IMG/VR virus record: IMGVR_UViG_3300025141_016923
Location: 1-44,415 of that record
Source of the DNA: a virus
DNA: 44,415 nt
Reading direction: 5' to 3' (one strand)
Shown here in pieces: positions 8,710-38,239 of this stretch (its first letter is position 1; every line of letters begins with the position of its first letter). Position numbers and translations under genes: made by a program. Below the pieces are notes generated by a model. That model worked only from the letters and a program-made list of their open reading frames with translations, ran no database searches and was not told the origin of the DNA.

Positions 8710-10247
8710 TATTCAACCTTAAACCCTTGTCCAACATTTAAAAATATTTGATCTTGTTCAAAATCCTTTATCAACAAATCGATTGTATAGCTCTTTCCGC
8801 GAGGTAGCACTTCTGTTCTTAAAATAAAATAGATTCCATCTGAATCGCTAGACAGCTTGGTTCCATTGTTTGTTGTTTCAAAGGGTATAATAACATCGCC
8901 TGAATCTATTTCTCTAATTCTATAGTAAGCACGCTGAAGTGTGGAACTTTTTGTTCGGTACGGTATTTTATAAACTTTTTCGGATTTATTTCTGTCTGCA
9001 ACAAAAAACTGGATCTTTAAAACTTCGTTGTGTTGCATTTTTGATGGCAATGTAACTGCCTTGACTATTAAATTTCCAGGCCTTGCGTTATAATCACTGG
9101 TTGTTGATCTAGAAATTTCAAGAGAGCCAGTATGAAAACCAACAGTTTCATCTGTCGAACACCAAATTGATTTAAATGTTATTGAACCACTAGTGTTAAC
9201 AAAATTTAAAATCACTTCATTGTCAGAGTTAATTTTTGTTTGATCTGATATTGCCACTGCTAATGACGCAGAGTATAAGCCAGTAATTGCGGTGTCGTCG
9301 GTTCCTTTTGCAACCTGGGACACAGTGTATGTCTTACTAAAATCATTCAGCTCTAATCGTAGTGTCATACATTCATCGCCAGTAAGGGCTGATGCTCCGG
9401 CTCCTGAAAGAAAATTTTGCCTTGAACCACGAACAAAATTGTTTAAAAATAATGATCCGGACACATCAAACACAAAGTCATCAGATGTGTCCACTTGAGA
9501 ATCATTATAGATAATGTGTAATGCTGGTTTCCTTAGTGGGTTTGATGATTGTACACTTGCAAATCGCTTTACAAACCTTGTCTTTGCATCATCCTCTTCG
9601 CTGCCCGTAAAAGCCAGCCTAAATCCGTGATCGGGTATTTTTTCGTCTAAAGTTGCCGATATTATTGTAGTAACATCAACAAACATATCTTCTGTGCCTT
9701 TGACGAATGTCTGTTCTGCAACAAGAGATTGTAGTGTTCCGTCAATTGTACCAGAAACAATATAATCGATATTATCAGAATTTAATTCTCCACCCTTGTT
9801 TGCACCAGATACGAACCATGTAGAAGGGGACCCAGCAGTGACTGATGATGTTATAAAATTTGCTGAATCTAAATCTGCGAATGATATAACATCTCTTCCT
9901 GAACCTTCATCAAAAGATGTTGATAGTGGAGCAAGAACTAATGAAAAATTTGCTGGCGTCGCAGTGCCACCAAGAAGATTATGAAGTTTTATCTTAGCCT
10001 TAAATGAACTATCGTTGATATCTATAACCGAACCTGTCAATGCCCTAAGTGGATTTAAGTCAAATTTCATTAAACCCCTAGATATTTCAGCGCTGCCTGT
10101 TACACCATTCAGCGTCGTTTCGTTGTAAAGCTTGAATATGTCAATTGTTCCAGCGCGGCCGACATTTGCATCAGACGCAGTAAATGCGCCATCAATAATC
10201 TTATTTGTAATATAAGTGTCTTTACTACCTGTATAAATTAAATACAT
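8709..10247 (-). CDS. DNRLRE-like structural protein between the gp6-like and gp7-like genes
   Basis: This 512-aa protein starts at ATG 10247 (TAATG with the gp6-like gene), preceded by a good GGGAG. The N-terminal 250 residues resemble DNRLRE or carbohydrate-binding jelly rolls of surface proteins: 'DTYITN' near the start, then 'SRGLMKFDL', 'FVDVTTIISA' and 'HGFRLAFTG'. The second half is beta-rich with several G-S/T-G turns (DVSGSLFLNN, HTGSLEIS) and ends in a strand-rich domain (YRIREIDSGDVIIPFE). There are no catalytic motifs. Its position inside the baseplate operon suggests a virion protein, perhaps a wedge accessory or short fibre attachment protein. No T4 equivalent is evident, and the DNRLRE resemblance is by eye only. 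Confidence 0.78.
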   Translation of the reverse strand: MYLIYTGSKDTYITNKIIDGAFTASDANVGRAGTIDIFKLYNETTLNGVTGSAEISRGLMKFDLNPLRALTGSVIDINDSSFKAKIKLHNLLGGTATPANFSLVLAPLSTSFDEGSGRDVISFADLDSANFITSSVTAGSPSTWFVSGANKGGELNSDNIDYIVSGTIDGTLQSLVAEQTFVKGTEDMFVDVTTIISATLDEKIPDHGFRLAFTGSEEDDAKTRFVKRFASVQSSNPLRKPALHIIYNDSQVDTSDDFVFDVSGSLFLNNFVRGSRQNFLSGAGASALTGDECMTLRLELNDFSKTYTVSQVAKGTDDTAITGLYSASLAVAISDQTKINSDNEVILNFVNTSGSITFKSIWCSTDETVGFHTGSLEISRSTTSDYNARPGNLIVKAVTLPSKMQHNEVLKIQFFVADRNKSEKVYKIPYRTKSSTLQRAYYRIREIDSGDVIIPFETTNNGTKLSSDSDGIYFILRTEVLPRGKSYTIDLLIKDFEQDQIFLNVGQGFKVE

Positions 10248-12091
10248 TACTCAGCACTCCCGATTATGTCATTGGTTATGAATCGCAATTCAAAAATAGA
10301 ACCCGGTGGTCCAACTATCATCCCTTTAAACTTATTTGATTCTAAATCATAGCTATAATCACTGTAAACATTAGTCCCCACCACACCAGCTAAATTAAAA
10401 AATATCAAGCTTGGCATTGCTAAAACACCCGGCGTGTTTATTATTGCATTAATAAAGTCTGCTTCAACCAAAGGTTGATCTATTTGATAATTTTTTGTTT
10501 CTGCAACATTCATTAAAGAGTTAATACACGCACTTGTCACAGTTTCCTTGTTGGAGTCTGGTGTAACAACCACTGAAAATTCAATGCCATAATTCACTAC
10601 GGTTGCATCTAACACATCGATAGAATCAGATATAAGTCTAAATTCATTAAGATATGTTGACAAATTTTTCTTCAATGTATCTGGTGCGATACTGAGCTTG
10701 CCAGCCCTATCTCTACTAAGAACATATAATTCAGAAGACAATGGGTTTCTTGTACTCTTCTTCAGTGATGCCCTATAAACTCTTCCAAATTGTGATGGAA
10801 GTGTATAAATTCTAGACAGTAAATCCTCCGCTGTAACAATTCTAGATTGTTGATTTCTAGCACTTTGGATTAATGATTTAACTCCAGCCATCGAAAACTT
10901 TGGAGCGCCTCCGGCTGCAGCTGCTTCATTAACAACGTCTAAAGAAGCGAGAACGTTTGCTGACACCGTCGCAGTAGGATTTCTCGGAAAATCTGATATA
11001 ACTTGACGAAATCCATCGATGTCTCCTGCGTCTACATTGTGTGAAAGACCACCACCGGTTCTATAACGAATTGTCAGTGTTGTATTGAACGGTGCGTCGC
11101 CCAGGCTCCTTGTCCTTCCAAAATCTCGCGGATCTATAGAAAATCTCGTAAAAGTCTTCTTACCAAACAGTGGTAAAGCAAGCTTCGATGGATCTGGAAT
11201 TAAATCATCTTTAGTTGACAATATAGAACCACCAAATGTAAGTGTCGTTGTGGCTGCCTGAATATTGTCTTCCCTAACAAAGCGCCTGCTAGCAGGAATT
11301 ATTTCTAGAGATGATTCGACTTCAAGTTGATCGAGAGAATAATTCCTGTTTTTTCTAAAAACAGTGTTCTGCGTTAAGAAATCTACTTCATAATAAGAAT
11401 TACCATCACTATCTTTAATACTCAATAGCTCAGTTACGTTTTGCCCTGTTAATATAATTTTTCGAAATGGTGTTGGTGCACCAATTCTTACACTTTGTGT
11501 TTTCAATTCACCGGAGACTGCGATGACCTCACGTGTCATAATATATGAAGCTGGATTTCCTGATGTATCTAATTGCGACACCATAGATGATGCTAAATAA
11601 TTTCCATTAATATCTATCTCAGCAAAATCTAGATCTTCAACAGTAGAAAAGGGTGGGCCCGAGCGCGTGTCACAACTTGTACCCATTTTTATAACTGGTA
11701 ATGCAGCAAGCTGTGGAACGTAATCTCCGTTCGAATCAACTTCAGCCGGTACTTCTATATAGATTTTTATAGTCATAACAGCAGGAGCTGGTCCGACTCC
11801 TTTCACACCAGCATTTCTTGCATGCATTAATACATTCGAAGATTGCTGAGCTGTCAACGGATTGAGTTCACAAAACTGATAATCTAGAAAATATGACATT
11901 GAGTCGCCAATATATGCAGCCAGGTCAACAAACATCCCTCCAATACTAGCCTCAGAAAAATCTGCATTTTGCTTGACAAAATAACTTCTTGCGTATGAAA
12001 GAAGTTCACCCTTAAAACTTGAGTAATCTTTTGCAAGATAATTTTTCTCATCCATAAATTTAGTTGTTGACTTTTCTTTGTCTGTTGCCAT
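10247..12091 (-). CDS. gp6: gp6-like baseplate wedge protein (baseplate J family)
   Basis: The 614-aa product matches the T4 gp6 plan. The N-terminus 'YLAKDYSSFKGELLSYARSYF' and 'SIGGMFVDLAAYIGDSMSYFLDYQ' is the typical wedge helix region. The centre carries the gpJ-like module ('SRIVTAEDLLSRIYTLP', 'GRVYRASLKKS', 'ELYVLSRD'), followed by 'LNEFRLISDSIDVLDATVVNYGIEF' and a C-terminal 'EADFINAIINTPGV'. In T4, gp6 forms the wedge ring that holds the baseplate together and reorganises on infection. The size is close to T4 gp6 (660 aa). It follows the gp25-like gene by 14 bases, giving the usual order 25-6-7. ATG 12091 has a weak TGAGAA upstream. This is the most secure assignment in the tail module, together with gp25. 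Confidence 0.93.
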   Translation of the reverse strand: MATDKEKSTTKFMDEKNYLAKDYSSFKGELLSYARSYFVKQNADFSEASIGGMFVDLAAYIGDSMSYFLDYQFCELNPLTAQQSSNVLMHARNAGVKGVGPAPAVMTIKIYIEVPAEVDSNGDYVPQLAALPVIKMGTSCDTRSGPPFSTVEDLDFAEIDINGNYLASSMVSQLDTSGNPASYIMTREVIAVSGELKTQSVRIGAPTPFRKIILTGQNVTELLSIKDSDGNSYYEVDFLTQNTVFRKNRNYSLDQLEVESSLEIIPASRRFVREDNIQAATTTLTFGGSILSTKDDLIPDPSKLALPLFGKKTFTRFSIDPRDFGRTRSLGDAPFNTTLTIRYRTGGGLSHNVDAGDIDGFRQVISDFPRNPTATVSANVLASLDVVNEAAAAGGAPKFSMAGVKSLIQSARNQQSRIVTAEDLLSRIYTLPSQFGRVYRASLKKSTRNPLSSELYVLSRDRAGKLSIAPDTLKKNLSTYLNEFRLISDSIDVLDATVVNYGIEFSVVVTPDSNKETVTSACINSLMNVAETKNYQIDQPLVEADFINAIINTPGVLAMPSLIFFNLAGVVGTNVYSDYSYDLESNKFKGMIVGPPGSIFELRFITNDIIGSAE

Positions 12092-12105: not shown

Positions 12106-12606
12106 TTATGCTATTGTTCCTAACACAACACTCATTGTTTCAAGTGATGCATTACCCTGAATAGAATAACCTAATTCTACACGGACCTTTATCACTCCTG
12201 ACGCAGGTGAAGACGGAAGCTTTTGGATCTTCATTGTCTGTAAATTTATGTATGACATGTAAGCAGCAACGGCAGTTTTAATTCTAACCATCACCTCGTC
12301 TTCAAATCCATCCACACCATACTCAGCTAATATAGCTCTTAAATTCGCGCCAAAATTGACGTCCATTACACGTTCGCCCCTATTTGTCTTCAATAGATTT
12401 GCCAAATTATTTGCAATGGCTGAGGAAGCATCAGTATTCATTACGAATAATTCTTTCTGTCTGCCTGACAACCTAAGCGGAACTTCAGGGCTGTAGTTCA
12501 CTTTTTTCTTTTTGCGGGTCTTCTGGAGGTCAAGCTCATGATTTCGAAGCTGCGGTAACCTATCACCCACTGAATTAAAATCAAATATTTTTTTACCTGA
12601 CGACAT
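12106..12606 (-). CDS. gp25: gp25-like baseplate wedge protein
   Basis: This 166-aa protein is of the GPW/gp25 family. I chose ATG 12606 rather than the GTG two codons earlier because GAGGAG lies about 6 bases upstream. The diagnostic part is residues about 55-105: 'AIANNLANLLKTNRGER' followed by 'DVNFGANLRAILAE', the helix-strand pattern of gp25, an inner wedge protein that seeds sheath assembly. A basic linker (KTRKKKKVN) precedes it. The length is a little above T4 gp25 (132 aa) because of an N-terminal extension. It lies upstream of gp6 with a short gap, and the 46 bases before it hold no clear promoter. Confidence 0.93.
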   Translation of the reverse strand: MSSGKKIFDFNSVGDRLPQLRNHELDLQKTRKKKKVNYSPEVPLRLSGRQKELFVMNTDASSAIANNLANLLKTNRGERVMDVNFGANLRAILAEYGVDGFEDEVMVRIKTAVAAYMSYINLQTMKIQKLPSSPASGVIKVRVELGYSIQGNASLETMSVVLGTIA

Positions 12607-12652
12607 TACCACTCCTCTATTTAATTATTCCATCCGATAAAACACAGTATAA

Positions 12653-15102: not shown

Positions 15103-15462
15103 CTACTCCGAAATTTTCGAAAATATGTCGTCTGGATCAATTCTAGACGACTGTTCTTCAGCCTTTGATATTAGCTCGGCCAGTTTTAACAGCTGTTCAT
15201 TTGAACGATTCATCCGCTCCAGATATTTTGTCAAAATCGGACCAACAGTAATGTGTTCCGTTGTCGTCATTTGCATTGCAGTATATGCTTCCCCAAATAA
15301 GATCTCTGCGTTCACACGGTCTCTTAATGCATTTTCATAAACCTCTTTCCAAAGTATCTTTTTCTTATCTGTGGTATTAACTAAATCATCAAGTAGATCG
15401 GAAAATGCATCAATTTTTTCCTGCTGCTTACTGTGTTTCTCTTTAAGCTCTTCGATACTCAA
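15103..15462 (-). CDS. Small helical protein with TTG start, downstream of the late sigma factor
   Basis: This 119-aa, strongly helical and charged protein has no ATG before residue 64. The TTG at 15462 overlaps the sigma-factor stop (TTGA) and has a strong GAGGAG at 15468-15473, so TTG is very likely the real start. The first half (EELKEKHSKQQEKIDAFSDLL) looks like a coiled coil, and the C-terminus is acidic (RIDPDDIFSKISE). Position next to gp55 brings to mind a partner such as T4 gp33, the late co-activator of about 112 aa, but I see no gp33 motif or its terminal LDFLL clamp-binding end. A small terminase or an unrelated helical protein is equally possible. Confidence 0.78.
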   Translation of the reverse strand: MSIEELKEKHSKQQEKIDAFSDLLDDLVNTTDKKKILWKEVYENALRDRVNAEILFGEAYTAMQMTTTEHITVGPILTKYLERMNRSNEQLLKLAELISKAEEQSSRIDPDDIFSKISE

Positions 15463-16181
15463 AACAACTCCTCATTCTTAATCTGCCTGTAAAGTCTTCT
15501 AATTGTCGACATTGACGTTGACAATTGTTTTGAATTTAAGCCTGAAATTTCTCTAATATATACATATATTGCCCTCTTATTTAGCAGATCAAGTTCGTCA
15601 ATCTTGTCAAAAACAACGAGAACTGCTTCAATACATGCAACGTCATTTGTGTTTACGACTTTTGATCTCAACATTTTCAAAATCTGCTGGATTTCAGCTC
15701 TTCTTTCTGCAGATATCATCATATCGTCTGGAGACTCAGATACTTTATAATGCATTATTGCGTGTCGATCAACTGCATTAAATGATTCAAGATCATGAAT
15801 AGAATATGCATTGTCCTGAACTTTCTTTCTCTTTCTTGTATTTAATATTAACCAATTTTTTCCAACAACGTTAAAATAAGAAAAGGCCTTTGTTCCTCGA
15901 GATCCATCAAATTTATAAAGTGTCTCATATAAAAATGTTACACAATCATTTTTTAAACTTCCAAAATCATGACGACCCTTTGCAAAGCCATAAATTAATA
16001 TTAAATTTTCTGCAAGTTTATCAAAAGCAGGCATTATATCTTTTGTATACAATAAATCACGCTCTTCCTGGGTTTCAGCAGATTGAAATTTTTCAATTGC
16101 AACCTGGGTATCTGCAGTAAAATATAACTTACTTTTTCCCTTGCTTCTTTTTATCTTTCTTCTTACTACTTTCTTTTTCAT
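15459..16181 (-). CDS. gp55: gp55-like late-transcription sigma factor with extra C-terminal HTH
   Basis: This 240-aa protein resembles T4 gp55, which binds host RNA polymerase and reads late promoters. The sigma region 2-like core is residues about 50-115: 'LAENLILIYGF', 'LKNDCVTFLYETLYKFD', then 'AFSYFNVVGKNWLI' and the basic 'NTRKRKKV'. The spacing and pattern match gp55. The N-terminus is very basic. T4 gp55 (185 aa) lacks sigma region 4. Here the last 80 residues contain 'AIYVYIREISGLNSKQLS' and 'MSTIRRLYRQIK', which look like a helix-turn-helix. ATG 16181 overlaps the preceding stop (ATGA), and the downstream small gene is coupled through its stop. The sigma call is fairly sure; the HTH is an interpretation. 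Confidence 0.87.
   Translation of the reverse strand: MKKKVVRRKIKRSKGKSKLYFTADTQVAIEKFQSAETQEERDLLYTKDIMPAFDKLAENLILIYGFAKGRHDFGSLKNDCVTFLYETLYKFDGSRGTKAFSYFNVVGKNWLILNTRKRKKVQDNAYSIHDLESFNAVDRHAIMHYKVSESPDDMMISAERRAEIQQILKMLRSKVVNTNDVACIEAVLVVFDKIDELDLLNKRAIYVYIREISGLNSKQLSTSMSTIRRLYRQIKNEELF
15468..15473 (-). promoter_or_regulatory. Strong ribosome binding site selecting a TTG start
   Basis: GAGGAG (minus strand) lies five bases before TTG 15462, inside the last codons of the sigma-factor gene. It is the main reason to accept TTG as the start of the 119-aa protein. Confidence 0.75.
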
Positions 16182-16528
16182 TGCAAAATCTCATCTTCTT
16201 TTTCTTTTTCAAGCTCAAGCTCCTCAACAGTCCCTAATAAATTTGCAACTTTTAAAATAGTGTCACGACTTTCTTTTAAGTCTTCATGCACTTTTCTGAT
16301 CTGAGGCGAATCATAAAATAGTGGAATTTCTAAAATTTCAGAAATTGACGAATATTTTTGATCAAGCATATCTAGGGCGCCTTCAATTCCATCAATCGTC
16401 CTTAAAATTAAAATTCCATGTTTGTAATTAAAATATAATGAAACACACAATAACAAAAAAGTAATAGCAAGCAAAATAGAAATAGTTAAAAGCAAATCAT
16501 CACCGAATAAACTCTTTTGCGACTTCAT
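16178..16528 (-). CDS. Small single-pass membrane protein
   Basis: This 116-aa protein has one clear transmembrane segment at residues about 12-34 (LLLTISILLAITFLLLC), followed by a long helical, charged soluble part ending in EELELEKEKEDEILQ. The short N-terminus and the absence of a cleavage site suggest a membrane anchor. The first 29 bases overlap the end of the GT4 gene, and the stop overlaps the sigma-factor ATG. The site before ATG 16528 is weak, so translation may depend on coupling; a TTG at 16495 is an alternative start. The function is unknown. Membrane proteins with coiled-coil tails can be spanins, superinfection-exclusion factors or morphogenesis proteins, but nothing here selects one. 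Confidence 0.78.
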   Translation of the reverse strand: MKSQKSLFGDDLLLTISILLAITFLLLCVSLYFNYKHGILILRTIDGIEGALDMLDQKYSSISEILEIPLFYDSPQIRKVHEDLKESRDTILKVANLLGTVEELELEKEKEDEILQ

Positions 16529-17654
16529 CCCAAAGTTTGCTTATGCTTTCAAACGAATGTGATGATTTCAATGTAGTTGACAATTGTTGTGCCCATTCTA
16601 CCGGTTTTTGATTTTGATCTCTAAATTTCTTTACCTTTTTCTTAAAGTCATTTTCATCAACCTCGGCCCACTTTGCACCTTTTACAAATATATTATTGTC
16701 AATTTTTTCCTGTGGAACTTCTTCGAGCCTGTAATCCAATGATATCCACTTTCCCTTATCAAGAAAATCGCGGTGGCCTGACCAATTCGTTGCGATCACT
16801 GGTAGACCACTTGCGGCTGCTTCTAACAGCGGTAATCCATATCCTTCTCCACGTGTTGGAGCAATCAAACACTTGACGGTCTTGTTTCGATAAAAAGAAG
16901 CGACTTCATCTTCAGACATTGCACCATGTACTAAGTAAACTGGAACGTCTGTGTTAAGTTCTCTTACCACTTTTCTTATCAGGTTCTTACAAACCCTACG
17001 ATCAATAGAAGTATTTCTACCATGATTTGTCTTTATAACGACACCGACATCTGGGTCACCAGCAAACGCTTCAGTTAACCACTTGAGTGCAAAAAATGTA
17101 TTCTTTCTATCAACAAATGCGTTGCTTCCCGTAATTTGTCCAAATATTAAAAAATTAAATTTTGTACGAACATTTAAGTCATATGGTTCTAATTCATCAT
17201 TTAAAATTGAGTCTGGAAAAGATTCTGGAACGACAACAATTGGAACTGTCAGTGTGCCAGTTCTCTCAAGCGTTGTTTTTGTGTGATTTGATGGAACAAC
17301 TATTAAGTTCATTTCGTTACATTTGGTAATCCACTCAGGATTGCACAAGTCAGTCTCGACCGCAGCAGTGACACCGACATTGAATTTTGCCAGCTTAGGA
17401 TCCCACTCATTTGGTAATTGAACTTGAAATGACAAATCAAAACCAGTCGCTTCAAACTCAACAGAGCGCTTCATGATTTCGCCGACCAGACCATTTAAAT
17501 CATCAGGGTTTATAAGCCAAGGTGTAATTCCCCATGGCAATATCTGAGTCGAAAGTTGAACACCTTCTTTTTGGTTTAACCATCGAAAAACCTGCCTGGT
17601 GTGATTACCATAGCCACTAATTGACAGCAATGGGCCTCTAACACAAATTCTCAT
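16500..17654 (-). CDS. Family 4 glycosyltransferase (second of a pair)
   Basis: This 384-aa GT-B enzyme has the GT4 layout. The N-terminus 'MRICVRGPLLSISGYGNHTRQV' is a Rossmann start with a glycine loop. A central hinge 'FNFLIFGQITGSN' is followed by the C-terminal donor domain with 'PTRGEGYGLPLLEAAASGLPVIAT', whose E-x7-E pair (about E270 and E278) binds the nucleotide-sugar. ATG 17654 forms ATGA with the upstream stop and is preceded by GAGGAGGT. The acceptor is unknown; the enzyme could act on a glycan, a protein or modified DNA. It forms a coupled pair with the next GT4 and is separated from the main glycan island by the nuclease gene. Confidence 0.9.
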   Translation of the reverse strand: MRICVRGPLLSISGYGNHTRQVFRWLNQKEGVQLSTQILPWGITPWLINPDDLNGLVGEIMKRSVEFEATGFDLSFQVQLPNEWDPKLAKFNVGVTAAVETDLCNPEWITKCNEMNLIVVPSNHTKTTLERTGTLTVPIVVVPESFPDSILNDELEPYDLNVRTKFNFLIFGQITGSNAFVDRKNTFFALKWLTEAFAGDPDVGVVIKTNHGRNTSIDRRVCKNLIRKVVRELNTDVPVYLVHGAMSEDEVASFYRNKTVKCLIAPTRGEGYGLPLLEAAASGLPVIATNWSGHRDFLDKGKWISLDYRLEEVPQEKIDNNIFVKGAKWAEVDENDFKKKVKKFRDQNQKPVEWAQQLSTTLKSSHSFESISKLWDEVAKEFIR

Positions 17655-18895
17655 TTTACCTCCTCGCAAACAACTCTATCATATTTGTCTTTCCACGTAG
17701 AAATAAGTTCATTTAATGTTTCATCCCACATATCTATTGTATTTTGATATGCAAATTCTGACTTAACGTAGTTTAAGACCTTTTCGCTTAAAGCTTTTCT
17801 CTCATCTTTATTTAATTTGTATATTTTTGTCAGGGCCGCGGCAGTCTCATCAAGATCAACGTAATCTTCATAGATGTAAGGAACATTCTGTGAACCAACA
17901 AGTGTTTGAAGCTTTATGTCCAAGGCAACACCGTTTTCAGTACCATCACGGTGATCGACAACTTGTCGTGTTAGTCCACCAGTTTTTCCAGCAATTATTG
18001 GAGTTCCTGTTTGCATTGCCTCTAGTGTTGCCAAACCAAATCCTTCAGCATATGATATATTAACACAAACGTCTGCTATATTGTGAAGGATATTAATTTT
18101 TTGAAAATCTAGTCTTTCAGTTGAAAAAACGACTTGCTCTGCTATGCCTAATTTTTCTGCTGCAGCGAATAAATTTGGGCCTTCACTATCATTTGGATCA
18201 GTGTGCATAAGAAGTAACACATCGGGCTTGTTCCCATCTACGGTATTTTCATCAATAAACTTTTTCCATGACAGTAATACGTCGTTAGGTCGCTTCCTCC
18301 TGGCATTTCTATTCATCCAAAATGCTACAAATGCATCTTTTTTATTATCTCCAATAGCTTGGATTTTTGCCCGCCTTATTTCTTCTTCAGGCATTTTAAA
18401 ATATACTTCGCCTGGCAAAGCATGTGGAATGAAATTAACCTTGTCCGGGTACCTGTCTTTTAACATTGTATATGTCAGGTGACTATGACAATTGATCAAA
18501 TCAGTAGCCTCATAAAATGGTGCATTAAATTCTGGAAATGGGTAATTGTCCCAAACATGCCAATATGCAATGGGACACATTTGATGAATTTCATCTTCCA
18601 TTTGCCACAACCACACAAAAAATCTTGGGTCTGTAAAAATCATTAAAATATCTGGCTTTTCGGCTGCCAAAGTTTGTCTTATTAACTCAACAGTTCCAAA
18701 TCCATCAACGGGTTTAATGACAAAATCAGGCGAAACCTGAACAACATCATAGTTATTGTGCTTTATTGCTGCACCAAACTGCCTGACAGTCCACGTACCT
18801 CTTTGTAACAATCCATTAACAAGGTGACGACTTTGAACACCAACCCCAGAAGTACTCAAGGCGTGATCAGACAGCAGTAGTATTTTCTTCTTCAT
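17651..18895 (-). CDS. Family 4 glycosyltransferase (first of a pair)
   Basis: The 414-aa protein starts 'MKKKILLLSDHALSTSGVGVQSR', the glycine loop of a GT-B N-domain. It has 'WHVWDNYPFP' and 'VNFIPHALPGEVYF' in the acceptor half, a basic hinge 'FWMNRNARRKRPND', and 'SYAEGFGLATLEAM' with the E-x7-E pair E284 and E292 of retaining GT4 enzymes. GGAG lies 11 bases upstream of the ATG. It is coupled to the second GT4 (ATGA), so the two probably act on the same product. In T4 the DNA alpha-glucosyltransferase gene is also near gene 55, but no specific similarity to that enzyme is visible, so a glycan or protein substrate is as likely. Confidence 0.9.
   Translation of the reverse strand: MKKKILLLSDHALSTSGVGVQSRHLVNGLLQRGTWTVRQFGAAIKHNNYDVVQVSPDFVIKPVDGFGTVELIRQTLAAEKPDILMIFTDPRFFVWLWQMEDEIHQMCPIAYWHVWDNYPFPEFNAPFYEATDLINCHSHLTYTMLKDRYPDKVNFIPHALPGEVYFKMPEEEIRRAKIQAIGDNKKDAFVAFWMNRNARRKRPNDVLLSWKKFIDENTVDGNKPDVLLLMHTDPNDSEGPNLFAAAEKLGIAEQVVFSTERLDFQKINILHNIADVCVNISYAEGFGLATLEAMQTGTPIIAGKTGGLTRQVVDHRDGTENGVALDIKLQTLVGSQNVPYIYEDYVDLDETAAALTKIYKLNKDERKALSEKVLNYVKSEFAYQNTIDMWDETLNELISTWKDKYDRVVCEEVK
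17658..17665 (-). promoter_or_regulatory. Near-perfect Shine-Dalgarno site fixing the GT4 start
   Basis: GAGGAGGT (minus strand) lies three bases before ATG 17654, within the last codons of the upstream GT4. It decides for ATG over the in-frame TTG five codons earlier. Confidence 0.8.
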
Positions 18896-18947
18896 TAATT
18901 ATTTCACTCCACAACGCTAAAAATAAACAAATTTTGTCAAGCGTAAA

Positions 18948-19787
18948 TTAAGTGCAGTGATTGGTATTATAAAAAGGACAATACTTGCAAGAATTTCTAT
19001 TTTTTAAATAAAGGCCTGCCCTTACTGTCTTCAGCATGCTTCTCAATAACTTATCAGATTTTTCTTCAGTCTTGGGACCAACTGATACTTTGAACAAGTC
19101 TATTGGATTTTTCTTAGCTCCCCTTTTTAGCAATACAAAACCAGCACCGACATTATTACACTCATAATCAAATTTATTTCGCCAAAACTTCTTGTATAAG
19201 GCAATCTGGGCTTGAACTAAAAAATCTTGCTTTTTTCTAGCTTGCCATCCATAAGCAGGTGCTGTCTTCCAGTCTAAGATCCAAACTTTTCTCTTATTAT
19301 TTCTATAATCACATTCAATCACAGCGTCAATAAAACCTTTAAATTTTATTGAATCGCCGGGAATTGGTTCATATAATTCATGCTCTGCAGAGATTGTTTT
19401 CCAGTTTGGAAAATTTGTATCCATAAATTCGGGTACAGCATTAACTGACGTTTCTGCCCATTTTAACCAATGCTCTAACGGCTCTAAAATTCTGGGTTTC
19501 TCACCACGTGCTTTTGCCGATTCAGTTAACTTTTCAATATACTCTTTTGTGTCATAACCCTTTTCACCCCAAGCCGTTTCTAATTTTGCTTTTAATAAAT
19601 CAACATTAATTTCTCTTGTTTTTAAGAAATTTTCTAAACAATCGTGAAGCAAAATACCGTAATCCAAATATTGCGATGGATCGTCTTGCTCAATTTTATC
19701 TACATATGTCAACTTGTGACGATAAGGACACTCTTTCCATGTCCGGACTTCTGAATATGATACATGTGGTTTTTGTGTTGGAAACAT
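18948..19787 (-). CDS. RecB/Cas4-like PD-(D/E)XK nuclease with an iron-sulfur cysteine set
   Basis: The 279-aa protein has the RecB-family nuclease order: a conserved His in 'LLHDCLENFL', Asp in 'GFIDAVIE', 'ILDWK' (the D-x-K core) and 'QAQIALYKKF' (the Q-x3-x2-Y helix). Four cysteines, C20 near the N-terminus and C267, C270 and C278 at the C-terminus, have the spacing of the 4Fe-4S clamp found in Cas4, AddB and related phage exonucleases. The likely function is a DNA exonuclease in recombination, replication or host DNA breakdown. No cas1 or repeat array is near, so a CRISPR role is unsupported. The ATG has no clear Shine-Dalgarno site, only an AT-rich (TTA)n leader. Confidence 0.87.
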   Translation of the reverse strand: MFPTQKPHVSYSEVRTWKECPYRHKLTYVDKIEQDDPSQYLDYGILLHDCLENFLKTREINVDLLKAKLETAWGEKGYDTKEYIEKLTESAKARGEKPRILEPLEHWLKWAETSVNAVPEFMDTNFPNWKTISAEHELYEPIPGDSIKFKGFIDAVIECDYRNNKRKVWILDWKTAPAYGWQARKKQDFLVQAQIALYKKFWRNKFDYECNNVGAGFVLLKRGAKKNPIDLFKVSVGPKTEEKSDKLLRSMLKTVRAGLYLKNRNSCKYCPFYNTNHCT

Positions 19788-19821
19788 ATAATAATAATAA
19801 ATGTATATAATGCTTTGTACA

Positions 19822-20757
19822 TTAATAGCTATTTATCACATCTTTTAAGTCATGTTTTGGTACCCAACCAACACTAAAAGCTGCACAAGAAAACTTATGT
19901 ATATCTGCTTGTGTCTCAAAAAGTTCAGATTTTCTCAGTGGAATGTTAACTGAAATATGAGATATATCTTCTTTCCCAGCCACCATTTGAGCCACTTGAT
20001 TTATTGAGTAATTTCTGCCAGTTCCGACGTTATAAATTTGAAAATAACCCGTATTTTCAGCACTTGGAAAACAACTTTCATGACTACATGCTATATTTGC
20101 TGCGGTGGCGTCATCGATATAAGTAAAATCCCGGCGCTGAGTTCCATCACCGACAATTGTCATTTTTTCTCCGGCAATGAATTGTCTTTTAAATAATCCT
20201 ATGACAGGTGCATAATGACCCTTGGTAGGCTCTCTAGGGCCATACACATTAAAGTACCTAAGAACTATTGCTTGCAACCCATAAGTTCTAGAATAGAACT
20301 CACAGAGCCTTTCCCCAAACCATTTAGAAAGTGCATAAGGAGTATTTAATTGTGGGTCCATGTCCTCTTTAAACGGGACTGGATTATCATGACCATAAAG
20401 TGATGAAGTTCCAGCATATATGAACCGGCAACCTTTATTTTTAAGCGCAAGGTCTAAAACATTTTGCGTTCCTATCGCATTGACTTGTGTTGCTTCGGAA
20501 CGATTATTAAATGTCGGTTGAATTCTTGACCTTGCTGCCATGTGATATATCATATCAAACTGACCAAGCTGAAATAATTTATGATCTTCCCTTGCTATAT
20601 CAAAGTGACAGTATGACGCACCGTCATTAAAATGAAAATAATCATTTTCAGGAGCAGACAAATCATCAACAACAGTCACACTGTGACCAAGTTTAACAAG
20701 CGCATCCACAGTATGACCACCAATAAATCCGCACCCACCGGTGACCAATGCTTTCAC
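19822..20757 (-). CDS. NAD-dependent sugar epimerase/dehydratase (UDP-glucose 4-epimerase-like extended SDR)
   Basis: This 311-aa extended short-chain dehydrogenase has the N-terminal NAD motif 'VTGGCGFIGGH' (TGxxGxxG), 'YHMAARS', 'YAGTSSLYG' (catalytic Ser/Thr), the 'YALSK' YxxxK pair and 'LRYFNVYGPRE', then 'GDGTQRRDFTYIDD', typical of UDP-hexose 4-epimerases and related enzymes. The start is GTG 20757, overlapping the upstream TAG, with AGGGT about eight bases before it. Its substrate cannot be fixed by eye; UDP-Glc/Gal and UDP-GlcNAc/GalNAc are the usual ones. It is the last gene of the glycan island. A one-step epimerase would feed a second nucleotide-sugar to the island's transferases. 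Confidence 0.87.
   Translation of the reverse strand: MKALVTGGCGFIGGHTVDALVKLGHSVTVVDDLSAPENDYFHFNDGASYCHFDIAREDHKLFQLGQFDMIYHMAARSRIQPTFNNRSEATQVNAIGTQNVLDLALKNKGCRFIYAGTSSLYGHDNPVPFKEDMDPQLNTPYALSKWFGERLCEFYSRTYGLQAIVLRYFNVYGPREPTKGHYAPVIGLFKRQFIAGEKMTIVGDGTQRRDFTYIDDATAANIACSHESCFPSAENTGYFQIYNVGTGRNYSINQVAQMVAGKEDISHISVNIPLRKSELFETQADIHKFSCAAFSVGWVPKHDLKDVINSY
19830..19837 (-). promoter_or_regulatory. Candidate T4-type late promoter before the nuclease gene
   Basis: The minus strand reads GATAAATA, one mismatch from the T4 late consensus TATAAATA, 43-50 bases upstream of the nuclease ATG. It lies within the last codons of the epimerase gene, so it may be coding coincidence. A gp55-like factor encoded downstream makes a late promoter plausible. 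Confidence 0.3.
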
Positions 20758-21179
20758 TAATCACCCTTTTCAATTCTGTAACTATCTGTATCGAAGTGTT
20801 GTGTTGAAAATTCAAAGAGCTCAGAATCTTCAAGGGCAATCATCCGGTGTCTGAGACCACGATACACGTGAAAGTTATCTCCTGGATTTAAGATTAACTC
20901 TTGAGCATGAGTTATGTCATCGTCGTCTGAGTATTTAACCAACATCTTTCCAGTTTGTAAATAAAACACTTCGTCCTTAAGCCTGTGTACATGCCAAGAA
21001 CACTTCTTTCCCTTGTTGAAAAATAAAAGCTTTCCACAGTACTCAGGACCATTACAGATCCAGCGCTCCCAACCCCAACCCTTGTCAACATGTTTCATTG
21101 GAAGCTTAGTTGTTCTCGGAAGAAACCTTGGTGTGCTTCTATTTTTATTTCTTACTGCGTCACTGTGACCATCACTCAT
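20757..21179 (-). CDS. Cupin (mannose-6-phosphate isomerase-type barrel)
   Basis: This 140-aa single-domain cupin has a metal site that can be read directly: H63, H65 and E70 in 'WHVHRLKDEVFYL', with a later His in 'NPGDNFHVYRGLRHRM'. The 'GWGWERWICN' lead-in is common in cupins related to type II phosphomannose isomerase and found in capsule clusters. A sugar-phosphate isomerase feeding GDP-mannose would agree with the GMD gene two genes upstream, but a lyxose isomerase or another role is possible. It overlaps the HAD gene by one base (TAATG) and the epimerase by one base. The Met at residue 28 is a less likely start. Confidence 0.8.
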   Translation of the reverse strand: MSDGHSDAVRNKNRSTPRFLPRTTKLPMKHVDKGWGWERWICNGPEYCGKLLFFNKGKKCSWHVHRLKDEVFYLQTGKMLVKYSDDDDITHAQELILNPGDNFHVYRGLRHRMIALEDSELFEFSTQHFDTDSYRIEKGD

Positions 21180-21535
21180 TATTGTTTCCCTGATTTTTCA
21201 ATTGCTCTTTGTAGTTCAAAAAATTTATGATCGCTCATTCCCTTATCGTCGACGTAAACATCACCAGCTGGTTTTCCCATAAACAAAGAGTGAAACTTAA
21301 CGCCCCATTTTTTCAGCTGCTTTTCAGTGTCCTTTCCAAGAAATTCCCATGCGAATGCCTGAGAATTTCCAGATCTGCCCATTCCTCTTGCGGTCTGAAA
21401 TATTATTATATTCCCTTCGTCATATAAACGATTCACTACACTAATTCTATCATTGAGCGGTGCTGCAGTTGAATAATCGCCATTTGTGATTTTTGTGCAA
21501 ATTGTACCATCAATATCAAAAACATATGTTGTCAT
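21179..21535 (-). CDS. Small HAD-family phosphatase of capsule type
   Basis: This 118-aa HAD protein has motif I 'VFDIDGTIC' with D7 and D9, motif II Thr in 'IFQTARGMG', a Lys in 'MGKPAGD' and acidic motif IV residues in 'VYVDDKGMSD'. There is no cap domain. Such short HAD proteins occur in polysaccharide clusters and probably dephosphorylate a sugar phosphate. The heptose pathway upstream lacks an obvious GmhB phosphatase, so this enzyme might fill the gap, but GmhB has a different zinc loop that is not seen here. GAGG eight bases before ATG 21535 and an ATGA overlap with the dehydrogenase stop fix the start. Confidence 0.83.
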   Translation of the reverse strand: MTTYVFDIDGTICTKITNGDYSTAAPLNDRISVVNRLYDEGNIIIFQTARGMGRSGNSQAFAWEFLGKDTEKQLKKWGVKFHSLFMGKPAGDVYVDDKGMSDHKFFELQRAIEKSGKQ

Positions 21536-22404
21536 TCTTTTTCCTCGCTTGACACTGCACCTTCAATTGTTGCCCAGTCTATGTCCTTACGGACTTCCTT
21601 ATTTTTTTCCCAGGTAGCAGTTAACATAATTGGGGATTCATTAATATCGTTAAAAAAACTAATGAACGCATTTATATCTTTTGGAAAACACTTTCCACCA
21701 AATCCAAAATCTCCATCATGGCCGGGCACATCTGTATGTGAATTTCCAATACGACCATCAGACATAAACCCATTCATAACATCATCCCAATTGCATCCAA
21801 GCTTTTTAGCAGCGGAAAACATTTCGTTCATATACGAAATTTTCGTTGCAAAGAAACAATTACACATATATTTGATAAATTCTGCTGACTTGAAATCGGT
21901 TTTGATTATTTTTGTATGCTTAAATCTATCCCTATATAAGTTAGAAACAATTTCTACATCACTGGCATTTCCACCAAGGACTATTCGAGCAGAATTAATA
22001 AAATCTAAATTTGCAGAACGTTCTGTTAGAAATTCTGGATTAAAAACAAAATTCATGAAAGGATATTGCTTTTCATATCTTTCCACAGTTCCTGGGATTA
22101 CAGTTGACTTTATAATAAAATAAACGCTGTCATATGAGAATTCTGAATCTTTTTCTACATTAACAATATCATTAATTACCGAATCTAAAATTCTCAAATC
22201 AATCTCGGCGCCATTCGCATGCTTCATTGGAGTTGGGACTGAAATGAATATAAAATTAGAACCATTAACGGTTTCATAAAGTGAATTAATTGATCTTTTA
22301 TTGTCACTGTCAAAAACCTTAACATTTGCATGTAAGGCAAATCCTGCGGCTATAGCCGATCCAACAAAACCATTTCCAATTATACCAATATTTTTCTTTT
22401 CCAC
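21532..22404 (-). CDS. UDP-glucose/GDP-mannose dehydrogenase-like protein, short form
   Basis: Starting from GTG 22404 (see the ribosome binding site entry) the product has 290 aa. Visible features are the N-terminal NAD loop 'IGIIGNGFVGSAIA', 'ISVPTP', 'IKSTVIPGTVE', 'FNPEFLTERSA' and the catalytic Cys motif 'FGGKCFPKD' (about C239). Classic enzymes oxidise UDP-Glc to UDP-GlcA in about 430 residues and close the site with a C-terminal UDP-binding domain. That domain is absent here, and the protein ends soon after the Cys motif. Short forms like this occur in phages, but whether they still oxidise a nucleotide-sugar is unclear. The product would be a uronic acid donor. The stop overlaps the HAD start (ATGA). 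Confidence 0.85.
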   Translation of the reverse strand: MEKKNIGIIGNGFVGSAIAAGFALHANVKVFDSDNKRSINSLYETVNGSNFIFISVPTPMKHANGAEIDLRILDSVINDIVNVEKDSEFSYDSVYFIIKSTVIPGTVERYEKQYPFMNFVFNPEFLTERSANLDFINSARIVLGGNASDVEIVSNLYRDRFKHTKIIKTDFKSAEFIKYMCNCFFATKISYMNEMFSAAKKLGCNWDDVMNGFMSDGRIGNSHTDVPGHDGDFGFGGKCFPKDINAFISFFNDINESPIMLTATWEKNKEVRKDIDWATIEGAVSSEEKE

Positions 22405-22410
22405 TGTCAA

Positions 22411-22414
22411 CCTC
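22411..22414 (-). promoter_or_regulatory. Ribosome binding site supporting a GTG start
   Basis: GAGG (minus strand) lies six bases before GTG 22404, overlapping the GMD stop codon. The longer TTG-started frame has no comparable site, so GTG is preferred. Confidence 0.6.
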
Positions 22415-23411
22415 AAATATTGTTTTGCCAATGCCCAATCATTTCTTCAAGCATTGACTCAAATGTATATTCTGGCTCCCATCCTAAAACATCTCTGGTA
22501 TGTTGAGAATCTCCCTTCAAGTACTTCAATTCTTCTGGCCGCATATATTTTGGATTTTGAACTATGTAATCTTCGTAGTTCATCCCAAGCATCTCAAACA
22601 CAATTCTGCACAGATCCCTTACTGAATGTGTTTGGCCCGTTGACACAATAAATTCACTGGGTACATCATGGTTTAAAATCATGTGCATGGCACGAACATA
22701 ATCTTTTGAATGGCCCCAATCTCGAAACGAATCCATATTACCAAGCTCTAATTTTTCTTGCAAACCTTTCTTTATCATCACCGCGCCTTTAACAACTTTA
22801 TTTGTCACAAAATTTGTTCCACGTCGTGGTGATTCGTGATTGAACAATATCCCATTACAGGCGTGTAAATTATATGCGTGTCTATAATGCCTGACTAAAT
22901 TATATCCCATCACCTTTGCACAGCCATAAGGACTTACTGGGGTCATTGGTGTTGTTAATCTTTGAACACCATCCGTGTCTACAGAATTTCCAAACATTTC
23001 TGATGAGCTAGCCTGATAAAATTTAGCGTTAGGACAAACGGTTCTGTAGATTTCCAGGATATTCAAAACACCTAATGCATTTGTTTTAATTGTAAACATT
23101 GGTAAGTCAAAGCTCACCCTAACATGACTCATTGCAGCAAGGTTATATATCTCGTCAGGCATAACATCAGACATGATCCTATACAGTGATGAATAATCGT
23201 TCATATCACCATAATACGTTTTAATTCTAGAATCACCATTATGTTCATATTTGCCATCTTTATTAATTGCGTGAAGTCTATAATTTTGATTTTCAGCAAC
23301 AGAATGTCTTCGAACAATTCCATGAACCTCATACCCAAGCGACAGTAAATATTCGGTCAGGTAACTTCCATCTTGACCTGATATTCCGGTTATCAAAGCT
23401 TTTTTTGTCAT
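22413..23411 (-). CDS. gmd: GDP-mannose 4,6-dehydratase
   Basis: The 332-aa enzyme matches GMD closely: 'ALITGISGQDGSYLTEYLL' at the N-terminus, 'GIVRRHS', 'YNLAAMSHV', 'FYQASSSEMFG', the 'YGCAK' YxxxK site and 'GILFNHESPRRG'. It converts GDP-mannose to GDP-4-keto-6-deoxymannose, the precursor of GDP-fucose, GDP-rhamnose, GDP-perosamine and related sugars. No GDP-fucose synthase is next to it, so the final sugar is uncertain; a nearby SDR, PLP enzyme or host enzyme may complete it. The length is slightly below the usual 345-370. AAGGTAG precedes ATG 23411. Confidence 0.94.
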   Translation of the reverse strand: MTKKALITGISGQDGSYLTEYLLSLGYEVHGIVRRHSVAENQNYRLHAINKDGKYEHNGDSRIKTYYGDMNDYSSLYRIMSDVMPDEIYNLAAMSHVRVSFDLPMFTIKTNALGVLNILEIYRTVCPNAKFYQASSSEMFGNSVDTDGVQRLTTPMTPVSPYGCAKVMGYNLVRHYRHAYNLHACNGILFNHESPRRGTNFVTNKVVKGAVMIKKGLQEKLELGNMDSFRDWGHSKDYVRAMHMILNHDVPSEFIVSTGQTHSVRDLCRIVFEMLGMNYEDYIVQNPKYMRPEELKYLKGDSQHTRDVLGWEPEYTFESMLEEMIGHWQNNI

Positions 23412-35736: not shown

Positions 35737-36559
35737 TTGTCTTCCTTATTAATGGGTAATAATTCCCTAATTCTTTCTTGTATGGCTTGTTTGGATAATC
35801 GAGACCTACAATTGGAAATTTTTGATTCGTCTCTTTAGCATCTTCTATTAAATCTTTTCTGACATACGTCATTTCAATTAAAGGAGGAATTTCACAACCT
35901 CCAATATTTATCTTCTTTAGTGAATTATTGGGGTGAATGTGAACAGCATAAAATTTAGAATTTAAAAAACTTAAAATTTCATAATATTTTCTGCACAGTT
36001 CTTCATTAATTTTATTATAAATCGTTTTATAAAAATTACAAAAATATGGTGTTAATTTATGCTCATCCTGCTGGTTTGGTATAAATTTTTTCTCAACATC
36101 GATGAATGCAAAATGAAATTCAATTAAAATTTGATCTACACTGCTTAACAATCCCGGGCTCACTGATTTTATTACTTCCCATTCGTCCCATTCAATATCC
36201 ATTTTCATAGTAATTCCGGAATTATAAGATTCTAGAATTGACGATAGTGATAAAAAATCACCAAATGATTTTGCGGCAACTCCCTTTTTAGTGAAGGTAA
36301 AATTTTCATGACTTAGTGGTAACGAATTTACAGTGTGATCAAACAGTTCCACAGAGGTATTCGGATATTTATTAACCCAATCAATCTCAAATGTAACATT
36401 ATCTTCAACACCAAATGAAATAAGTGTACTACATTCATTAGCTATTTCATGAACTGCAACGTAACCGCCATCACAATTATTCCCAATTCTTATTTTTGAG
36501 AATTCACAATCATAAACTTTTATTTCATTTAAAAAATTAGTAGCCAAATCACTAATCAT
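35726..36559 (-). CDS. FkbM-like methyltransferase, divergent
   Basis: The 277-aa protein carries FkbM-type signatures: 'KIRIGNNCDGGYVAVHE' near the N-terminus, 'LISFGVEDNVTFEID', and 'MKMDIEWDEWEVIKS' (residues 118-132), the equivalent of the D-I-E-G-x-E motif, here with W in place of G. The C-terminal half includes 'LIEFHFAF' and a His-rich 'YAVHIHPNNS'. This subfamily is common beside polysaccharide genes. The altered motif may affect substrate rather than SAM binding. The ATG overlaps the alcohol dehydrogenase stop (ATGA). Confidence 0.8.
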   Translation of the reverse strand: MISDLATNFLNEIKVYDCEFSKIRIGNNCDGGYVAVHEIANECSTLISFGVEDNVTFEIDWVNKYPNTSVELFDHTVNSLPLSHENFTFTKKGVAAKSFGDFLSLSSILESYNSGITMKMDIEWDEWEVIKSVSPGLLSSVDQILIEFHFAFIDVEKKFIPNQQDEHKLTPYFCNFYKTIYNKINEELCRKYYEILSFLNSKFYAVHIHPNNSLKKINIGGCEIPPLIEMTYVRKDLIEDAKETNQKFPIVGLDYPNKPYKKELGNYYPLIRKTNVE

Positions 36560-37581
36560 TGATGATCCATTTTAACCATAACTCTGCCGGCTATTCCAGA
36601 CATTAATAATTCAAACGCCTCATCAACGCCATCTATACTATAAACTGCAGTTATAATCTTATCAATATCTAAAATTCCTGCCTTATGCATTTTTACATAT
36701 CTTTTTAGATCATTCTGTGGGTTGGTCTTTCCTCCTTGTGATACTATAATAGACTTTCCGGAAGGTGACCACCAACTAACGCCATCAGGAATCTTTATAT
36801 CCTGACCTGGTTTTGGCTGGCCTACTAAAATATATCGTCCAGAATCACCAAGAAATTTCATGGTTTCGTATATCGCGTTGACGTTTCCAGTTGTGTCCAT
36901 AATAACATCAAATTTATCAAATTGATCTAGATCGTCAATTTTATCTAAAAAGTGTGTGGCACCAATATTTTCTACAATAAACTGTTTATCTGTTTTGATG
37001 TCTAAACCAACTACTGGATAAGCGCTAGCTAGAAGTGACCCCTGGATTAGATTTAATCCGACACCACCACATCCAACAATCAGAACGCTCTCACCAAATT
37101 TTATCTTTGCATCATTGTTAACAGCACCAAGAGCAGTTGTCATTCCACATCCAAGCAGCGCACATAGGTATTCATCAGTGTCGGCCGGGACGGTTGTTAC
37201 TCTATTTTCTGACACTATTGAAAATTCACTAAGTGTAGTTATTTTTCCGGCAGACATTTCATCACCATTTTCCAGAAAATATTTTGGAAACGGGGCTTCT
37301 ATACCACCACTCTTCCTCCAGTGCATGACAACTTTATCACCAGTACTTACTGTTGTTACACCAGCCCCAACGTCCTCAACGATGCCACAACCTTCATGGC
37401 CAAGCATATGAGGCATAAATTTTGCATTTCCTTTGTGGCCGTTGATTTCATGAATTTGCGCACCGCATAATCCGCTAACTAAAACCCTAACCAAAACCTG
37501 ACCAGGTTCTAAGTGCTGTGGTAGATACACTTGTTCAACTTTTGGAACAATTCCAACTTTTCTTAATATGGCAGCCTTCAT
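36556..37581 (-). CDS. Zinc-dependent alcohol dehydrogenase (MDR), lacking the structural zinc lobe
   Basis: The product starts at ATG 37581, one base after the SDR stop, with GAGGA upstream; it has 341 aa. It is a medium-chain dehydrogenase with the catalytic zinc set C39 ('SGLCGAQIHE'), H62-E ('LGHEGCGIV') and C145 ('LLGCGMTTALG'), and an NAD loop 'LIVGCGGVGLN'. The four-cysteine structural zinc loop is missing and replaced by 'HWRKSGGIEAPFPKYFLENG'. Such forms occur in sugar clusters and oxidise polyols or sugars. It is next to the transketolase pair and an SDR, so these may act in one pathway. Confidence 0.9.
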   Translation of the reverse strand: MKAAILRKVGIVPKVEQVYLPQHLEPGQVLVRVLVSGLCGAQIHEINGHKGNAKFMPHMLGHEGCGIVEDVGAGVTTVSTGDKVVMHWRKSGGIEAPFPKYFLENGDEMSAGKITTLSEFSIVSENRVTTVPADTDEYLCALLGCGMTTALGAVNNDAKIKFGESVLIVGCGGVGLNLIQGSLLASAYPVVGLDIKTDKQFIVENIGATHFLDKIDDLDQFDKFDVIMDTTGNVNAIYETMKFLGDSGRYILVGQPKPGQDIKIPDGVSWWSPSGKSIIVSQGGKTNPQNDLKRYVKMHKAGILDIDKIITAVYSIDGVDEAFELLMSGIAGRVMVKMDHQ

Positions 37582-37582
37582 C

Positions 37583-38239
37583 TTATCCTCGATTAAATTT
37601 TCTAATAACAACTTCTGTTTCAAGCGATGTCATATTATTGCCCCCTATAATATCGCCCACCCTACTGGCAACTTCTCTGGGGTCTATTAACGTACTATAG
37701 TTTTCCCGAGATCTTGTCATGTCTGTCTTCATTGCACCCGGAAATATATCAACTATCCTAACATTCTTTCCAATCGATTCAACTTGCAGTGACTGTGAAA
37801 AACCTTTTAATGCATGTTTTGTTGAGCTGTAAATTGTTTCACCAGGGGCTGGTTGAAGAGCAGCGATTGAATTTATATTAATAATCAAACCATCACCTTT
37901 ATTCACAAAGTGAGCGTACACTCTTTTTAAAAGCTTAATCTGCGCTGTTATGTTAACATTTACTATTTTTTCTATATCCTCATCAGAATGTTCTAAAAAT
38001 AATTTTCTCTGATGTATTGCTGCATTATTCACAAATACATTAATATTATTGTGATCTAATGCTAACTCTATTTTGTCAAGGGTTGTGCTGTCGGTAATAT
38101 CTCCAGCAACTGCGTTTTTTAGCAAGTTCTGTGGAAAAATTCTAAAATGAGGAAGAACAAAACAGCCTCTATCATGTAATTCATCACAGATTAACACTCC
38201 AAGACCCCTTGAACAGCCCGTCACTAAAACATTATTCAT
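37583..38239 (-). CDS. Short-chain dehydrogenase/reductase (classical SDR)
   Basis: The 218-aa enzyme has the cofactor loop 'TGCSRGLG' (residues 7-14), 'FVNNAAIH' (N71-N-A-A), the catalytic Ser S124 in 'NSIAAL', and the YxxxK pair Y137 and K141 in 'IYSSTKHALKGF', followed by 'IFPGAMKTDM'. GAGG lies seven bases before ATG 38239. It is probably a sugar or polyol reductase that works with the alcohol dehydrogenase downstream; the stop of one is one base from the start of the other. The substrate is unknown. Confidence 0.9.
   Translation of the reverse strand: MNNVLVTGCSRGLGVLICDELHDRGCFVLPHFRIFPQNLLKNAVAGDITDSTTLDKIELALDHNNINVFVNNAAIHQRKLFLEHSDEDIEKIVNVNITAQIKLLKRVYAHFVNKGDGLIININSIAALQPAPGETIYSSTKHALKGFSQSLQVESIGKNVRIVDIFPGAMKTDMTRSRENYSTLIDPREVASRVGDIIGGNNMTSLETEVVIRKFNRG

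Follow-up and report, generated by a model that had tools for sequence, protein, structure and literature searches.

A gp55-type late sigma factor with an added C-terminal domain, probably resembling sigma region 4, in a large phage family

Introduction

The best-described relative of the system studied here is late transcription in bacteriophage T4, and our account of it draws in part on a review that we take to be by Geiduschek and Kassavetis. In the sections of the sources used here, T4 gp55 needs gp33, and its chain ends in a disordered tail that carries a clamp-binding motif (PMC7892883, PMC2988020), and both gp55 and gp33 bind the sliding clamp via hydrophobic C-terminal tails (PMC2988020). 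The -12 adenine of the promoter is held by gp55 residue Y97, and D74 is one of three acidic residues that lie on the beta' clamp helices of RNA polymerase (PMC7892883). As for gp33, which is encoded by a separate gene, it is described as structurally unrelated to sigma region 4 in the part of PMC7892883 used here; the corresponding part of PMC7824862 calls it a helix-turn-helix (HTH).

A 'fused late-transcription sigma' had not been found according to the consulted sections of the T4 review, which pose it as a question (PMC2988020). Section 9 of the same review cites artificial gp55-gp33 fusions (Jain and Geiduschek, unpublished), with which late transcription was fully dependent on the sliding clamp (PMC2988020). 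In the open-licence literature we found no description of a sigma of the gp55 type that naturally carries a region 4-like domain. Here we describe a phage gene that may encode one.

Results

The sigma gene and its family

The window is a virus record of 44,415 bases, and almost all of its large genes lie on the minus strand. The sigma gene reads from 16181 to 15459, and the plus strand across this interval is full of stops (Table 1). The protein is conserved among relatives, with 81% identity in close ones, falling to about 24% in far ones, and is therefore not the product of a chance open reading frame (ORF). Searched on its own, it matched a sigma family neither in Pfam nor in PHROGs, and homology was visible only via relatives and profiles; a search of the family profile against PDB sequences gave a best E of 0.24, to an unrelated protein.

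Table 1. Positions of the sigma gene, its parts and its neighbours in the window.
Feature	Position	Strand	Remarks
Late sigma gene with added C-terminal domain	15459..16181	minus	240 aa, gp55-type
gp55 / sigma region 2 core, residues 13-125	15807..16145	minus	hhalign, phrog_234, structure match, conservation
Added domain, residues 178-240	15462..15650	minus	Not in T4 gp55 or Ochrobactrum phage OC gp55
Predicted helix-turn-helix, residues 202-235	15477..15578	minus	AlphaFold2, VIA-align to sigma region 4
Tail EELF, candidate sliding-clamp-binding motif	15462..15473	minus	Clade-wise motif count
Partner gene, 119 aa, TTG start	15103..15462	minus	Start overlaps sigma stop; phage-family-specific protein
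Baseplate wedge gene (phrog_261, phrog_43)	12106..12612	minus	Downstream of sigma, co-directional
Baseplate wedge gene (phrog_219)	10247..12091	minus	Context of sigma gene

Relatives in IMG/VR came from two scans, the first yielding 12 loci and the second at least 579 of 600 candidate stretches, of which the best 80 were taken. When phage records were searched with the window protein, 6 of 50,697 matched, all of them without annotation or labelled 'hypothetical protein'; isolated Flavobacterium phages carry a family member under that label. Genome bins held 6 family loci. One family locus (L198, PBIO01000013.1) lies in a bin named Halobacteriovorax, which may be a possible host or a binning artefact.

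From 92 loci we left out two near copies (L003 and L011), one locus on the contig of L010 (L052) and two that were cut at the contig start (L045 and L050); the remaining 87 and the window made up the 88 sequences compared. The alignment (A2) contains 70 of these, the other 18, mostly near duplicates, having been removed by hand. Clades were set by a motif, not by a tree, which placed 45 sequences in the clade of the window, 32 in another large clade and 10 in neither.

The order of a sigma gene followed by baseplate wedge genes also occurs in Flavobacterium phage immuto 3-5A (hereafter immuto), and Microcystis phage Mel-JY01 has a similar order with a tail lysozyme gene. The homologue in immuto has the accession QQO92070. 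Elsewhere in the window, positions 16500-23411 hold a sugar-modifying cluster of two glycosyltransferases, two nucleotide-sugar epimerases, a cupin that matches a family named cysteine dioxygenase, and a phosphatase-like protein. An alcohol dehydrogenase gene is found at 36556-37623.

The N-terminal core is of the gp55 type

A preliminary description of this gene, made from the sequence of the window, had called the product a gp55-like late sigma factor, and profile comparisons bear this out. The PHROGs family 'late sigma transcription factor' (phrog_234) was matched by 51 of the 70 aligned members, at best with E 4e-9. In the five members whose matches were displayed, the match ended by about residue 175 at most, and among nine family proteins scanned it was found in four, between residues 2 and 174. 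When the family profile was aligned with hhalign, six gp55s gave E 1.7e-10 over the core and eleven cellular sigmas gave 7.5e-4; Pfam Sigma70_r2 matched weakly in 14/70 members. Searched against six T4-like records, the profile also recovered three gp55s, those of phage OC (2e-12), phage 65 (1.4e-6) and Syn1 (1.2e-5).

The region 2 part of the predicted structure aligned with sigma region 2 at Z about 10, with an rmsd of 2.2-2.6 over 93-96 residues. In the residue pairing read from the hhalign alignment, the invariant Y102 (70/70) corresponds to Y97 of T4 gp55 and D79 (D or E in 69/70) corresponds to D74. We regard homology to gp55, as judged from these sequence comparisons, as close to certain. 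Common to the two proteins are the region 2 core, the conserved pocket tyrosine and the onset of the long helix behind the core; promoters with only a -10 box would probably be a further likeness. They differ in that T4 gp55 has 185 aa and lacks a counterpart of the last part of the window protein.

The layout of a region 2 and a region 4-like domain within about 240 aa is also that of ECF sigmas and of the phage sigmas in BFVD, and it could be argued that the protein is an early or middle ECF-type sigma that resembles gp55 by chance and is not a late sigma. We consider this very improbable, since the sequence matches gp55 and not ECF families, the gene lies among or adjoins baseplate genes, and the candidate promoter box described below favours structural genes.

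The added domain is predicted to contain a helix-turn-helix

The preliminary description had also counted about 80 extra residues. We find about 65-80 residues beyond the extent of T4 gp55, and they are conserved, the added domain being found in 88/88 sequences compared. As the closest annotated gp55, that of phage OC, aligns no further than profile position 175, residues 178-240 represent an addition relative to it.

AlphaFold2, run with the 70 sequences, modelled the whole protein with a mean pLDDT of 88 and a pTM of 0.52; residues 148-240 modelled alone gave 87.6 and 0.76. The predicted helices of the added domain span residues 178-192, 202-213 and 217-235, and the last two form the HTH, which consists of a helix KRAIYVYIREIS, a turn GLN at 214-216 and a single long helix SKQLSTSMSTIRRLYRQIK. 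Block means of pLDDT over residues 202-235 were 94-97 in the full model, and the helix borders were alike in both models. An HTH in the added domain is thus likely on the predicted structure. The C-terminal HTH suggested earlier was recovered in the prediction, although the helices that had been named, REISGLNSKQLS and TIRRLYRQIK, were in the wrong register. The motif ranks with the best-conserved stretches of the protein, and several of its positions vary little among the 70 sequences (K202 in 70/70, Y208 in 67/70, R210 in 68/70, E211 in 64/70 and Y231 in 68/70). In the second helix, position 228 is R or K in 70/70, and 229 is mostly K or R.

Fold comparisons point to sigma factors. With the full model, each of the 50 best PDB rows from Foldseek was a sigma factor or a model containing one, with E 5.5e-3 at best, and in many sigma rows the VIA-align alignment spanned regions 2 to 4. 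With the isolated domain, Foldseek gave nothing below E 1 and placed a Thermus aquaticus sigma at E 8.3. When 133 candidates for the isolated domain were re-scored with VIA-align, region 4 chains ranked 1, 2, 3, 5 and 7 (Z 6.0-5.0); the best was 4xlp_F (Z 6.0, rmsd 3.0, 80 residues), and sigma-28 ranked 9. Z values of 5-6 are modest and common fold arrangements also occur in that range, and a signal recognition particle (SRP) protein (Z 5.3) and a Cas protein (Z 5.2) stood amid the region 4 rows. The structures of T4 gp33 and gp55 were not among the PDB fold matches listed, which excludes nothing. We consider the likeness of the predicted domain to sigma region 4 probable, and the evidence for it suggestive.

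Sequence profiles do not discriminate between region 4 and gp33 as relatives of the C-terminal domain. Sigma70_r4 was not among the first 25 Pfam families listed for the window protein, the 70 full proteins and the 70 C-terminal parts. The profile comparison that had been suggested earlier, of the C-terminal part with region 4, gave an hhalign score of 16.6 in the register of the HTH, which was reached by 2/200 and 0/100 column shuffles. The score against gp33 was also 16.6 (11 columns, E 0.029, reached by 1/100 shuffles), with a gp33 profile of two sequences and a match confined to 11 residues in the N-terminal part of T4 gp33, to which the sequence likeness of the two proteins is limited. 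Thus, the earlier claim of a probable region 4-like domain agrees with the nearest predicted folds but is not supported by the profiles, which match region 4 no better than gp33.

The domain shares with region 4 of RpoD, RpoS, SigH and ECF sigmas the same predicted three-helix HTH and its place C-terminal to region 2. It is set apart from them in that no Pfam region 4 match was listed and no -35 element was found in the relatives. The BFVD phage sigmas of Bacillus phages and cyanophages likewise combine regions 2 and 4 in one protein of similar predicted layout; going by their descriptions, they are near cellular sigmas, whereas the region 2 found here is of the gp55 type.

No gp33 is detected in the family records

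We searched 22 records, 16 from the family, several of which are probably fragments, and 6 T4-like controls. The gp33 profile (phrog_254) matched in 0/16 family records and 6/6 controls, so that the separate gp33 gene which would have argued against a single protein was not detected. A profile of the T4 sliding clamp, gp45 (phrog_223), likewise matched in 0/16 and 6/6, and bacterial DnaN was found in 0/16 family records (18 records searched). The absence of gp33 is soft evidence, because the gp45 profile missed a clamp-like ORF in Mel-JY01. This ORF (L131:9675-10508) is unannotated, encodes 277 aa and lies between the genes for a family B polymerase and a gp44-type clamp loader; by its place and sequence it is likely a divergent sliding clamp.

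The replication genes differ within the family. Of the 16 family records, 6 had a family A polymerase match and 2 a family B polymerase match, compared with 0 and 6 of the 6 controls. Strong matches to a gp44-type loader were seen in Mel-JY01 (6e-77), LR756508 and all six controls, and weaker ones (3e-10 to 6e-3) in G003, G004, G005, G008, G009 and G013. Loss of the clamp was considered as an explanation of the fusion throughout the family and was rejected; Mel-JY01 has the polymerase, loader and clamp-like ORF just described, and LR756508 likewise has a family B polymerase and a loader. Therefore, only part of the family could be clamp-free.

Since the added domain is present in 88/88 sequences and gp33 had no match in 16/16 family records, the window protein is a variant and not a plain gp55.

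A box upstream of structural genes in relatives lacks an upstream element

On T4 late genes, used as a control, our motif search returned TtATAAATAt. In the phage immuto, [CA]TATTTAT stands just 5' of the start codon of structural genes. Counted upstream of mechanically called ORFs, [AC]TATTTAT was found 30 times in sense and 3 times in antisense in immuto (random 4.6 +- 2.4), 20/2 times in Mel-JY01, 11/1 in G003, 19/7 in G001, 4/2 in G005, 3/0 in G006 and 3/4 in G002. In these first four relatives the T4 box TATAAATA was rarer than [CA]TATTTAT. The window had none of the boxes in its 45 upstream regions (sense/antisense 0/1) and no T4-type TATAAATA upstream of genes; the promoter argument therefore rests on the relatives and not on the window. 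In the short loci the box occurred 7/6 times in the window's clade, with no strand bias, and 6/1 in the other clade. For the most part, motif searches of the window, G005 and G006 either returned nothing or picked up ribosome-binding sites and the context of start codons.

Of the 26 boxes in immuto, 18 lie ahead of genes of the structural blocks, which comprise 59 of 207 genes (p 4e-6, a post hoc value because the blocks were drawn from the annotation after the boxes were visible), compared with 0/14 early-type promoters. TTGACA-type sites are present in G003, and the early promoters of immuto are of another type. As early promoters differ between the two and the box is common to them across hosts, we infer that its reader is encoded by the phages.

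If the C-terminal domain were an ordinary region 4, it would cap the flap of the polymerase and also read a -35 or other upstream element, and late promoters would have two parts. The predicted fold, which is nearest to region 4, and the conserved basic residues in which the second HTH helix is rich are what this reading would lead one to expect. However, the 73 boxes from the four relatives had no conserved upstream element, the top column reaching 0.13 bits against a null 95% of 0.17, where the null assumes independent bases. In immuto alone, column -46 was slightly over the null (0.48 versus 0.47 bits). The early-type promoters of immuto, by contrast, showed a fixed GTTG as a positive control (G 12, T 13, T 13 and G 13 of 13), and TTG stood in the corresponding upstream region of 7 of the 26 late-type boxes. 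An ordinary region 4 is in our view unlikely, and the suggestion in the preliminary description that an extra promoter element is recognized finds no support in these boxes.

Two other upstream motifs were seen in relatives. Mel-JY01 (L014, L131; PP395634), for which Microcystis elabens is the recorded host, carries TTG ... TAnnTTTG promoters. We take these to be of the Bacteroidota type, and the host assignment may be wrong. In G002 (L155-L167), at about 203-246 kb, a long repeated motif with CCTGTACAAAG and TAACAGATC stands upstream of many small genes, possibly as a promoter or as a repeat with a regulatory role.

The C-terminal tail and the partner gene

Motifs of the form [DEYFGN][LIVM]F were found in the last residues of 23 of the 45 proteins of the window's clade and 0 of the 32 of the other large clade; elsewhere in these proteins their frequency was about 0.022 per position. 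Such an xLF-type tail resembles the QLxLF clamp motifs of bacteria. T4 gp33 ends in NTLDFLL and the window sigma in EELF. Among five family A polymerases of the phages, no clamp motif common to their ends was seen.

According to the length table, 87/88 sequences have an ORF shorter than 175 aa downstream of the sigma gene, two or three of these ORFs being visibly unlike the others. A profile of the partner matched in 9/9 family records and 0/6 T4-like phages, and a PHROGs scan of partner genes gave nothing informative. The partner may act in transcription as a co-activator, or it may be structural. The main rival to a single protein with both roles builds on this gene: the C-terminal domain may have another job, such as binding the partner, and the cap may come from a different protein, perhaps the partner itself as an analogue of gp33. 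A short ORF in nearly all 88 sequences with a family-specific profile would fit this proposal, as would a protein of about the size of gp33 that ends near acidic and hydrophobic residues (DDIF in the window). However, the partner showed no similarity to gp33 (score 8.2, E 0.77) or to the C-terminal domain of the sigma, and it also adjoins baseplate genes and could have a structural or assembly function. We regard a cap supplied by the partner as possible but doubtful.

Discussion

The family described here combines homology to gp55, an added domain, a predicted HTH fold and the lack of a detectable gp33, and in an annotated relative, immuto, a -10-only box lies upstream of structural genes. 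Based on these results, we propose a model in which one undivided late sigma caps the polymerase flap with its own C-terminal domain, and this domain does not read DNA. We favour this model modestly over the alternatives taken together. That one protein unites the roles of gp55 and gp33, as the preliminary description had proposed, is the best reading because the core is of the gp55 type, the HTH is region 4-like and gp33 had no match in 16/16 family records; flap binding is the part of that proposal that we can only infer.

The first part of our model concerns the promoter. The gp55-type region 2 would sit on the beta' clamp helices and read a T4-like -10 box, probably near [CA]TATTTAT where T4 has TATAAATA. 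The box would then be a promoter, this sigma would use it, and the same would hold in the phage from which the window comes.

The second part concerns the flap. The region 4-like HTH would lie on the beta-flap tip, in the place taken by the separate gp33 in T4, and would cap the flap without reading a -35 sequence, the role that we propose it has in common with gp33. The artificial gp55-gp33 fusions likewise place a late sigma and a flap cap in a single chain. Those are laboratory constructs, and the present family would be their natural counterpart.

A further step would be that, in the window's clade, one chain serves as -10 reader, flap cap and clamp-docking tail on the host beta clamp. The host clamp would be the docking site because in G005 and G006, the two larger records of this clade that we analysed closely, we detected a family A polymerase and neither a phage clamp nor a strong match to a clamp loader. 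We think it improbable that all three functions are combined in this way. If they are, docking on the host clamp would couple late transcription to replication through a host part.

If our model is correct, a large unannotated protein family gains the label of a late sigma. Where T4 uses two proteins for its late genes, a large and mostly uncultured phage family would use one longer protein. A natural fused sigma in hundreds of phage contigs (at least 579 of 600 stretches) would make the question posed for T4 testable: with the flap cap built into the sigma chain itself, is late transcription freed from the need for a clamp, or is it fully clamp-dependent, as with the artificial fusions?
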